The notes under the pieces were generated by a model. That model made no database searches. It was not told the origin of the DNA and was given only the letters and a program-made list of their open reading frames with translations. A stretch of 64,000 nt of DNA from Glandiceps talaboti (Eukaryota; Hemichordata; Enteropneusta; Spengelidae): assembly GCF_964340395.1 (NCBI RefSeq), contig NC_135549.1, positions 8,895,342 through 8,959,341 on the forward strand, written 5' to 3'. Of this stretch, positions 14,501 through 63,197 are shown piece by piece. Both the position numbers and the translations under genes were made by a program. How positions within the stretch are numbered: the stretch's first letter is position 1; each line of letters begins with the position of its first letter.

Positions 14501-17500
14501 AAGTGTGAAATGACTTAATTGTGATAGCTGTCTAGAAAACTGTAATGAACAATCACAATTATACCATGCACCAGTCAAGTTGAACAAAAAATATGGAATT
14601 TACACTCTGGTCGTTCTATGTCACTACAACATGTTTCTACATCACTGGTTTTGCTGTGTTCGAAATACATTCAAAATTGCCATTACTTTCCTTGATTTTT
14701 CTTTGATGTTACTGGCGCTGGTATAATTATGTTATTCACCAATATTCAGCCAGAAAATGCTCATCTAGTGACCAATAATGACAAAGGCCCTTCACTGAAC
14801 AAAGACAAATATTGGGGAAATTATAACATCTAATTATATTCTCAAAAATGGAAGTCCTGCATTATTCTGTCATTTTCAGTACAGTTTCATTGATAAATCT
14901 ATTTTGTATGTTTCTATGATTTCACCATTTTAGGGGCTTGCTCTAATTAATGGAACACAACTTATGACATCCATTGGAGTAACTGGTAAGTTAGTTAATA
15001 CACTATGACATCCTTTGACATAATTGGTAAGTTACACTACTTTAATGACATCTATTGGAGTAGTTGGTAAGTTGCACTATGCAGTTTGTAAACACAAACC
15101 AGACATTGTCAGATCCTCAGAATTTGAAGAAGGTTTTAATCTAAGGAATTCATTGACTTTCCCTGTACACAGTACATTGATAGGTGGTTTAAAAGCCCAC
15201 CATAGGATTGGAACAACACGTTGACAACATTCAACTTGATACGAATTCATGCATTCATTGGATTTCCCTCGTGTTTCCATTATGCTTGTAACAAAAGAAT
15301 ATTCAAACTCTCACCCTAGAATATTGGCAATGTACTTCATTGAAGTTTGTGCATATAAAATTGCTTCAGAATGAAATCTAGTTTTATATGCAGCTTACTT
15401 TTGCCAGGCTCTACAAGTAACTATTAAAACTACTTCCCTAAAATAAAAGTTGAAGAATTTGTTTTGTATTCAGTTTTGCCTCAATTTAAGTCTAGAATCA
15501 TCTCATTTTTTTTAAGATTGATGTGAAAATTCTAGCTGAAAAGTTGTTCACAAAAGTCTGGTAAAAGTGGACTTTTAATGTATCAGATTTGTAGGTTAAA
15601 GGGGTTGAAGTATTTCAGTAATAAAGAATAGTCTTGTACACACACACTGTTTCTTGACCCTTGACCCTTGACCTGACCCTTGGTGTAGAATGAGATATAC
15701 ACCTCTATGTTCACACCCACTCAGAGGATTAATAGCGAATGTCTGAGAACAGGAAAGAAGACTGAATAGTTATTTAAGTAATATTTTTTACTAATTTTGC
15801 CTGATTGATCGACAGAAATTCCTTTAAAATTTGCCTCCAACTCACTTTTGCAGATATCAAACTCCTTCAATGAAGGTATAATGTAACATTTGAGGTATTG
15901 TTTTATGCATTATAATTGTTAATTCTCTCAGAAAGGTGAGAGAGATCAAGACAGACAATCATGAAATTGAAAGCTTATTTGATAATTGATGTGACTTTTT
16001 TTTGGTTTATACATTGTCAATGATTAGTAGATTATTAGTAGTTTATTGCTTTTCTGGCCCTAGTAGCAATTCTTATGCAAAATATGTTTTAATCTTTAGG
16101 TTTAAAATTACTATAATATTTGTGTTTTCAAAAAAAAAAAAATTCTTCAAATTTCAATGGAATACATTAACAGTGGTTGTGAACTTAGTAGGGTTAGAAT
16201 AGTTAAAGTGACTATATGGATGAGGATTAGGTATTTATTTTGGATTTTTAATTTAAAACAGTTTTATCATGGCTTCCTACTTGAACAATTAATGTAAAAC
16301 ATACCACATGCCAAGTCCTTGTTTGTATCTCAATAAATTACGAAAGGTTATAAATGTGTACATGCTTGTTATTGTACATACAATAAAAAAAAAACTTTTT
16401 ACACATTTTTTATAGCTTTTTGCAATGCACTGAGTTACAAACACAGACTTGGTCAGTGGTGTTTGACATTGATTTTTCAAGTAGATAGCCATGATAAAAT
16501 TGTTTTATAGATTAAAAATCCTGAATAAATATGCAATTCAGATCCATATGGTCACTTTAGTACTTGTATATATCCCAAAGAATTCAAAGTAAAGAATGAC
16601 TAGAATAGTAAACAGAAAGAAACACATTCTACATGTGCATTGAAATCCCTCTAATAAATTCTGCTGTGGTTTATTTTAGCCTTGGAGAGAGCATCAGCTA
16701 TAGCAAGACAGGCGGATGTGGTAGCAGCTTTAACCTTGGATGTTTTGAAAGGCACAACAAGGGCTTTTGATAGCGGTAAGTTTTTAAAAGGCACAGCAAG
16801 GGCTTTTGATAGTAGTAAGTCGTTACTGTGTAAGGTAGTATTGTTAGCATTGCTTTACACTGTGTGTCCCAATAAATGAGACAGATAAAGTTATGTATTG
16901 TGTAGGCTGGTCACACCTGTGACAATTAATATGATGTAATTTTTATTCCGTTCACAATTTATATAGGAATAGAAGTACTGTAAAATGTAAGTGAGAAAAA
17001 CAGTTGTCTGTCTGAGCTGTAGAAAAAGTTAATCCTGAACGAACAAATGCTAATACATCACTGATAAAATGGTATTTATCTAAGTCTGGGATTTAATCAT
17101 GGTGCTTTAATATATTCTTTGAAATATTCCAAGCTAAACTTGCAATAAACAAGCCTTGTTGATGTCATTATAGTGCCAACATAACCAGAGGAGTTGGAAA
17201 AGTTGGAAAAGACTGATAGAAAAGGCTTTGCGTGCTTTCGAATGTATAAGCTTGCTGTCTGATACATGTGTGAAAAGACTTTTGTTTAGTCAAAAATATA
17301 TCAAAATAATACTGACAATATGTCTGTTTCTTTTGTTGGTCATAACCTCAACCAACTCAAGGAAAATAGGTTAAAGTAATCGTCTCAATTTCAATATTCT
17401 GTCAAATTTAGATTCTGTTGTTATGTTTGATCATCTGTATCACACTATCTTATATCAAAATGACATTTCAAATTGTATTTATGTGGATTTTAAGCTTTGA

Positions 17501-62100: not shown

Positions 62101-63197
62101 GCACCATCTGGACAGTCTACTACCATAGGTACACAATGTACTAGTTTACTTACCTGTCATGCACCATCTAGATAGTCTACTACCATGGGTACACAATGTA
62201 CTAGTTTACTTACCTGATGCACCATCTGGACAGGCTACTACCATGGGTACACAATGTACTACTTTACTTACCTCTTGCACCATCTGGACAGTCTACTACC
62301 ATAGGTACACAATGTACTAGTTTACTTACCTGTCATGCACCATCTGGACAGTCTACTACCATGGGTACATAATGTACTAGTTTACTTACCTCTTGCACCA
62401 TCTGGACAGTCTACTACCATGGGTACACAATGTACTAGTTTACTTACCTCTTGCAACATCTGGACAGTCTACTACCATGGGTACACAATGTACTAGTTTA
62501 CTTACCTGTCATGCACCATCTGGACAGTCTACTACCATGGGTACATAATGTACTTGTTTACTTATCTGATGCACCATCTGGACAGTCTACTACCATGGGT
62601 ACACAATGTACCTGTTTACTTACCTGTCATGCACCATCTGGACAGTCTACTACCATTGGTACACAATGTACTAGTTTACTTATCTGATGCACCATCTGGA
62701 CAGTCTACTACCATGGGTACACAATGTACTAGTTTACTTACCTCTTGCAACATCTGGACAGTCTACTACCATGGGTACACAATGTACTAGTTTACTTACC
62801 TCTTGCACCATCTGGACAGTCTACTACCATGGGTACACAATGTACTAGTTTACTTACCTGCCATGCACCATCTGGACAGTCTACTACCATGGGTACATAA
62901 TGTACTTGTTTACTTATCTGATGCACCATCTGGACAGTCTACTACCATGGGTACACAATGTACCTGTTTATTTACCTCTTGCACCATCTGGACAGTCTAC
63001 TACCATGGGTACACAATGTACTAGTTTACTTACCTCTTGCACCATCTGGACAGTCTACTACCATGGGTACATAATGTACTTGTTTACTTACCTCTTGCAC
63101 CATCTGGACAGTCTACTACCATGGGTACACAATGTACTTGTTTACTTACCTGATGCACCATCTGGACAGTCAACTACCATGGGTACAGAAGAACAAT
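53195..63197 (-). CDS. Single-pass membrane protein with FN3-like and sushi domains, 3' eleven exons (5' partial)
   Basis: Exons in transcript order: 63197-63150, 61603-61413, 61039-60992, 58746-58698, 57660-57485, 57250-57203, 56820-56763, 56609-56406, 56048-55851, 54965-54774, 53790-53195. Phases agree and give about 601 residues before TGA. Order: a short Cys segment (DCSSVPMVVDCPDGAS); FN3-like module 1 (exons 2-4, ending FPCRDC); FN3-like module 2 (exons 5-7, ending NCTQC); two CCP/sushi domains, one per exon, each with four Cys, a Trp and N-glycosylation sites; a juxtamembrane stretch; a membrane helix (VAAGVIAGVLGGIVLVGIWY) with a basic stop; then a tail of about 230 residues with a dozen tyrosines. 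Both CCP exons are symmetric phase 1-1, typical of shuffled modules. I do not recognise an orthologue; a receptor or adhesion role is inferred. The N-terminus lies beyond the window. Confidence 0.8.
54973..55048. repeat. (ACAG)n microsatellite beside the membrane-segment exon
   Basis: Imperfect AGAC/ACAG units starting about 8 bp upstream (minus sense) of the acceptor of the exon at 54965. No normal polypyrimidine tract is visible; the GTCT/CTGT repeat itself provides the pyrimidines. Confidence 0.85.
58030..58412 (-). mobile_element. MITE-like element, copy 2 (receptor intron)
   Basis: Inverted copy of 46895-47287. The + strand runs from GGTGTGGTTCCAATTACATT to AACCAGAACCAAACAAC and TTATTTGGCCTAA. 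Internal blocks match copy 1 in reverse complement, such as CCAAATGGTCTCTGTGTTGT and GATGTACGGCCATTACAGAT, with small differences. Terminal inverted repeats of about 30 bp are imperfect. Confidence 0.75.
59483..60761. mobile_element. Non-autonomous DNA transposon, hAT-like ends (receptor intron)
   Basis: Ends are CAGGGTTCGTAC (left) and the inverse GTGCGAACCCTG (right), with CCAGG-rich subterminal repeats (TTTTCCAGGG several times) on both sides. CCACCC flanks both ends and may be part of a target duplication, though I cannot define a clean 8-bp copy. About 1.28 kb long, more CpG-rich than its surroundings, with no transposase ORF. It sits between the receptor exons at 61039-60992 and 58746-58698. 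Confidence 0.7.
61925..63197 (-). repeat. 58-bp minisatellite spanning a receptor exon/intron junction
   Basis: About 22 units of 56-60 bp. Read on the minus strand, each contains coding text for VPMVVDCPDGA(R/S), then the donor GTAAGTAAAC, then a short linker. The unit at 63150-63197 is the real exon: it has an acceptor (TTACAG) and joins in frame to 61603. Repeat units differ from it by GTA for GTT and AAGAG for ATCAG. About 20 extra donor sequences follow the true one. Because the unit is not a multiple of three, use of later donors would shift the frame. Confidence 0.9.

Follow-up and report, generated by a model that had tools for sequence, protein, structure and literature searches.

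Why should an intron begin with copy after copy of the exon end that precedes it? The question is raised by a stretch of 64,000 nucleotides (the window) from the acorn worm Glandiceps talaboti (Hemichordata, Enteropneusta, Spengelidae), contig NC_135549.1, which carries HAL, UROC1 and an IL-17-receptor-like gene. Of 46 modelled donors (5' splice sites) in the window, 7 stand at the head of an array that repeats the exon end together with its GT, and all three genes are affected: 14985, 16775 and 22560 in HAL (+ strand); 42433, 42060 and 33213 in UROC1 (- strand); and 63150 in the receptor gene (- strand). An earlier note on this DNA had claimed that seven introns among about 46 start in this way, and all seven places are confirmed; the exons that it numbered HAL 9, 10 and 17 are HAL 10, 11 and 18 in the 20-exon model used here. 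The arrays, found by Tandem Repeats Finder (TRF), an anchored scan or self-alignment, with borders taken from spliced alignment, are the following:

14955..15079, + strand: HAL exon 10 donor array (exon 14934-14985), about 3 diverged copies, unit about 40 bp; TRF, scan score 48, self-alignment
16743..16820, + strand: HAL exon 11 donor array (exon 16680-16775), 2 copies of 39 bp; TRF (89% matches), scan score 47
22532..23268, + strand: HAL exon 18 donor array (exon 22452-22560), about 22 copies of 33 bp; TRF, scan score 86
42364..42483, - strand: UROC1 exon 5 donor array (exon 42561-42433), 2 copies of 60 bp, 95% identical; TRF, scan score 77, self-alignment
41938..42090, - strand: UROC1 exon 6 donor array (exon 42121-42060), 3 copies at a spacing of 44-51 bp; TRF, scan score 68, self-alignment
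32703..33256, - strand: UROC1 exon 17 degenerate donor array (exon 33394-33213), about 7 copies at a spacing of about 70-100 bp; scan score 61, self-alignment
61925..63190, - strand: receptor donor array (exon 63197-63150), about 22 units of 58 bp (five spacings of 60); TRF, self-alignment

The arrays differ widely in size and in divergence. Copy number ranges from 2 to about 22, and identity between copies is highest at UROC1 exon 5 (95%) and lowest at UROC1 exon 17 (about 78%); the recurrence and wide range of ages proposed before are upheld. Six arrays have units of 33-60 bp. Those of the seventh, at UROC1 exon 17, measure about 70-100 bp; TRF missed it as such, but it reaches a score of 61, where 1000 shuffles give at most 26. 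This array is old. The exonic share of the unit has a mean of 0.73 in the six arrays other than exon 17 (one-sided P 0.026 against uniform), which is a hint only. Long introns were rejected as a cause, since the array introns are not longer than the others (P 0.40). Each of the seven introns starts at the first donor, takes in the array and ends at the next exon, and no new intron has arisen between copies. The best-supported account of this anatomy is a recurrent small tandem duplication that straddles the donor and is followed by minisatellite growth, the original exon end and its donor remaining at the head of the array.

The exon models behind these counts come from several sources. For HAL (+ strand, 5533-24105), the spliced alignment reproduces the G. 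talaboti protein P0001 exactly, with 648/648 residues in 20 exons; a protein search with a draft HAL had also ranked G. talaboti first. UROC1 (- strand, 47738-31300) has 18 exons with a full-length homologue as template; it was modelled by spliced alignment of the Acanthaster, catfish and shark homologues, and the border of exon 1 is supported by one homologue. The third gene, which is IL-17-receptor-like with sushi domains, lies on the - strand with its start beyond 64000 and matches G. talaboti protein P0241. Its exon 63197-63150 is present as CSSVPMVVDCPDGAS in the annotated P0241, where the next exon, at 61603, follows directly; the acceptor at 63198 was placed by eye, and over the first 200 or so residues of P0241 the automatic alignment is spurious because the upstream exons lie outside the window. 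The 46 modelled donors comprise 19 in HAL, 17 in UROC1 and 10 in the receptor gene, with two weak members, receptor 54885 and UROC1 exon 1. Receptor donor 54885 is itself doubtful, as a plausible complete membrane helix with a tail results when the membrane exon is read past it (53198-54985, - strand). As annotated, P0241 ends in ..GEEEPLHL, which looks like a mis-splicing, and a 211-residue frame at 53198-53830 that matches no Pfam family is a candidate for the cytoplasmic part. HAL and UROC1, which encode consecutive enzymes of histidine breakdown, are adjacent tail to tail (window 5533-47738).

These models also bear on whether the arrays are real. Near-identical long arrays are hard to assemble, and the two 22-unit arrays may in truth contain more or fewer copies than counted. 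However, the copies differ by 5 to over 20%, which is not something that an assembler would invent, and the borders match the annotated proteins and, for the three HAL array exons, the Ptychodera and amphioxus homologues as well. It is therefore very improbable that the arrays are an artefact of repeats collapsed or expanded in assembly, or of joined haplotypes.

The gene bodies also contain an acceptor-side duplicate and arrays that lie wholly within introns, the latter serving as a comparison set:

40546..41250, - strand: UROC1 exon 8 acceptor-side duplicate (exon 40578-40397), with a diverged copy of intron end plus exon start near 41180-41250
19339..19453, + strand: intron-only array in HAL intron 14; TRF
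35285..35444, - strand: intron-only 76-bp duplication in UROC1 intron 14; TRF, self-alignment
38594..39267, - strand: intron-only 32-bp array of about 21 copies in UROC1 intron 10; TRF, self-alignment
39930..40370, - strand: intron-only diverged repeats in UROC1 intron 8; self-alignment

The acceptor copy at UROC1 exon 8 lies about 600-680 nt upstream of the original, scores 77 against a shuffle maximum of 34 (1000 shuffles), and is separated from the original by a 27-bp minisatellite (40647-41167). The seven donors stand, but the phenomenon is not restricted to donors as had been thought, this acceptor case having been overlooked. A possible older third copy of the same acceptor region, at 41298-41340 (- strand), scores 30 against a shuffle maximum of 28 (n=1000) and is at the edge of detection. 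The 27-, 32-, 47- and 76-bp arrays were checked as candidate donor arrays and are not donor arrays. The diverged repeats in UROC1 intron 8 (- strand) are centred on a palindrome, GTTGCTATAGCAAC, which we take to resemble an RFX/X-box site.

How far do the arrays favour donors? All enrichment figures refer to this one 64-kb window, which was chosen for the feature itself. Under a null model in which the observed unit lengths are placed uniformly over tolerated positions (within an intron, or across one junction), donors would be expected to hold 0.65 of the 12 gene-body arrays, each counted as one founding event; they hold 7 (P 7e-7). Without the degenerate UROC1 exon 17 array, the count is 6 of 11 (P 6e-6); with TRF arrays alone, a set of 11 that includes 38313, it is 6 of 11 against 0.49 expected (P 3e-6); and for junctions of either kind it is 8 of 12 against 1.3 (P 5e-6). 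A separate scan under a uniform rule yields 11 events, of which 6 fall on donors and none on acceptors, with HAL exon 10 not picked up and the UROC1 exon 8 acceptor copy beyond its reach. The 12-array set omits microsatellites, the low-complexity tract 38313-38401, 57742-57790 (TRF score 54), the intergenic repeats 3688-4116, 49006-49159 and 51164-51678, and a pair of sushi exons at 55834/56388, whose similarity is coding homology. It had been suggested that a duplication across a donor may be better tolerated than others. Tolerance alone is insufficient as the cause, because intronic duplications are tolerated as well and yet donors take seven of the 12 events.

The array donors also share a sequence. 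All seven read GTAAGT, compared with 7 of the 39 other donors (Fisher one-sided P 6.4e-5). The P value is 4.5e-5 when receptor 54885 and UROC1 exon 1 are dropped as weak, 7.6e-5 without 54885 alone, and 1.3e-4 without UROC1 exons 1 and 17. Exonic AG is rarer at array donors (1/7 vs 24/39, P 0.036), indicating that their donor information is on the intron side. The bare GTAAGT motif is not favoured as a promoter of duplication: a nearby copy is found at 3 of 34 non-donor GTAAGT sites outside the arrays, compared with 7 of 14 GTAAGT donors (P 0.0034). One of these three sites is inside the exon 17 array region, and the other two are one repeat pair; without the first, P is 0.0014. The tie of arrays to GTAAGT donors is a new regularity, seen in this window only. 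A broader proposal, which we regard as possible but doubtful, is that strong U1-binding donors (GTAAGT) are hotspots of splicing- or transcription-coupled duplication over the 5' splice site in hemichordates and amphioxus, perhaps old in deuterostomes, and a supply of sequence from which exons could be extended and introns turned over.

Which of the repeated donors is used? The annotated P0001 and P0241 join exons from the first donor at four of the seven arrays (three in HAL, one in the receptor gene), and the remainder of each array is therefore intron. Homology suggests that the first donor is probably used at the three UROC1 array donors too. Use of a later donor would bring in a stop at HAL 10 (2/2 copies), HAL 18 (21/21), UROC1 6 (2/2), UROC1 17 (5/6) and the receptor array (20/20). 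The second donors of HAL 11 and UROC1 5, in contrast, would add 13 and 20 codons, respectively, in frame and without a stop.

The later copies speak to whether selection retains the arrays, either because extra U1 sites help exon definition or because they protect the intron from premature polyadenylation. GTAAGT stands at every array donor, and GT is kept in 21/21 later copies at HAL 18 and, by a pattern count, in 18/21 receptor units, the first included. (This count supersedes an ungapped comparison that gave 12/20 later receptor copies and missed units with a 2-nt insert.) On the other hand, GT is present in only 4/6 later copies at UROC1 exon 17, three receptor units have AT in its place, the receptor donor is no more conserved than the claim requires, and the array introns are, as noted, of ordinary length. 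Conservation of GT across copies thus gives no clear sign of selection, and retention of the arrays by selection seems improbable.

Together, the anatomy and the position of the arrays point to recurrent small duplications over strong donors, followed by ordinary minisatellite growth, giving 'mirage' minisatellites in a hemichordate that are harmless because the first donor is used. We consider this reading, on balance, probable. The founding copy would arise when a small staggered break, made by two offset nicks, is filled in and ligated by end-joining. Microhomology at the array edges is at most 1 bp in the four arrays examined (HAL 11, HAL 18, UROC1 5 and receptor), and staggered-break end-joining therefore fits better than slippage between pre-existing repeats. 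The array would then grow by slippage or unequal exchange, and it would persist if the spliceosome commits to a strong, first-transcribed donor before the copies of that donor have been transcribed, leaving the competing copies without harm. In the weakest step, the founding event or its retention would be favoured at strong donors, because a permissive filter cannot give donors more arrays per base than introns; this might reflect a raised break rate there, for example from nascent RNA or bound U1, or a longer retention of donor arrays.

Several points weigh against this reading. There is one window, and it was picked for the feature. The 12-array set was hand-assembled from two methods, with the acceptor unit length set to 60. 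Base coverage was scored at the junctions of HAL and UROC1, which include 36 of the 46 donors: 6 of these 36, and 1 of 36 acceptors, have a nearby copy, compared with 10.6% of 350 random intron points, and the donor excess is not significant (P 0.17). The excess of donors over acceptors, 7 to 1, has a P value of 0.07. Enrichment over a control, which had been proposed as the test, is borne out within the window by the event count but not by base coverage. Coverage mostly reflects array growth, which copies the array itself, and the founding duplication was therefore held to be the fair unit. In addition, the GTAAGT regularity is post hoc, having been noticed after the data were inspected; the edge data cover four of the seven arrays, and microhomology may have decayed at old edges; and with the second donors of HAL 11 and UROC1 5 open in frame, the argument that the copies are harmless because they are unused is not proven at those two exons.

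The simplest competitor is a neutral, minisatellite-rich genome subject to purifying selection, in which duplications of exons and acceptors are purged, those of donors and introns survive, and splice sites exert no bias. Arrays are indeed present in introns and between genes in the window, donors exceed acceptors by 7 to 1, and arrays do not cover donors significantly more often than they cover intron points, all as such a genome would give. However, a permissive filter cannot lift the rate of events at donors above that in introns, and neither the seven events where 0.65 are expected nor GTAAGT at 7/7 array donors is predicted. We therefore think this alternative rather unlikely, although better placed than selection for the arrays.

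The preferred reading, duplication over donors followed by minisatellite growth, has a close precedent. Minisatellites that cross exon-intron boundaries, called mirages, are described in amphioxus at Adh3, the globins BflGb6 and BflGb9, TnC and PGBD5 (PMC3087553, PMC3902484). According to the mirage passages of these papers, splice signals occur in many copies and splicing is regular (PMC3087553, PMC3902484), and the globin paper has both 5' and 3' boundaries open to duplication and calls the mechanism unclear (PMC3087553/PMC3902484). The likeness is structural: tandem copies span the exon-intron boundary, here at seven donors and one acceptor, and both sides occur. In amphioxus, mirages leave splicing undisturbed, as those passages describe it; here, the annotated proteins fit that picture at four of the seven arrays, and two second donors are open in frame. 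Differences are also apparent. The present animal is a hemichordate and not a cephalochordate; the term mirage was coined in amphioxus, but its structural definition makes no reference to taxon. Three genes of one 64-kb window are affected, at seven donors and one acceptor; the tie to GTAAGT goes unmentioned in the mirage passages; and length instability between haplotypes, animals or tissues belongs to the amphioxus type and is reported between animals or tissues for Adh3, the present comparison covering one sequence. The link to amphioxus drawn before thus holds for the anatomy, Adh included, but not for the genome, since HAL matches G. talaboti at 648/648 residues. By structure, the arrays are of the known mirage kind, now in a second deuterostome phylum. 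Among the matches listed for boundary repeats and mirages, there was no case in hemichordates or other non-amphioxus animals, with a human counterpart possible, and a word search of the main text of a hemichordate genome paper (PMC11175523) did not return 'minisatellite', 'mirage' or 'tandem repeat'.

Other known duplications resemble the arrays in part. Introns can be gained by tandem genomic duplication of an exon segment bearing AGGT (PMC3443670), which, in that paper's account of the process, likewise involves a small tandem duplication and splice signals; here, however, the intron pre-exists, the duplication straddles its donor, and no new intron results. In mouse cells, small tandem duplications arise when staggered breaks are end-joined (PMC5730883), with, in the part of that report concerned, little or no microhomology, comparable to the edges of the four arrays examined as they stand today. 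Unlike the present case, they were made with nickase pairs in culture and have no tie to splice sites there, and many-copy arrays would need further growth. Repeats in an earthworm metallothionein gene (PMC12783039) were rejected as a counterpart: the relevant part of that paper describes a fourth exon that is duplicated but missing from the transcript, together with minisatellites in introns, and shows no clear array across a boundary.

A feature described in amphioxus thus recurs at high density in another phylum of deuterostomes, and its association with GTAAGT gives a vague notion a form that can be counted genome-wide. If the tie is true, a mutational process would be guided by splice signals; if it is false, the arrays show within what limits a genome can bear competing donors in a row. 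In both cases, they offer natural test material for asking how the spliceosome chooses the first among up to 22 near-identical donors, and HAL 11 and UROC1 5 are places where alternative products could arise.

Away from the three genes, the window opens with retroelement reading frames (2-3656, + strand). One contains a reverse transcriptase domain (PF00078, E 4e-20); the next has no Pfam match and looks like that of a tyrosine recombinase, as in DIRS-type elements. Just behind these frames is an 82-bp direct repeat (3688-3769 and 4035-4116), 98.8% identical and 347 bp apart, which could form part of the end of the element.

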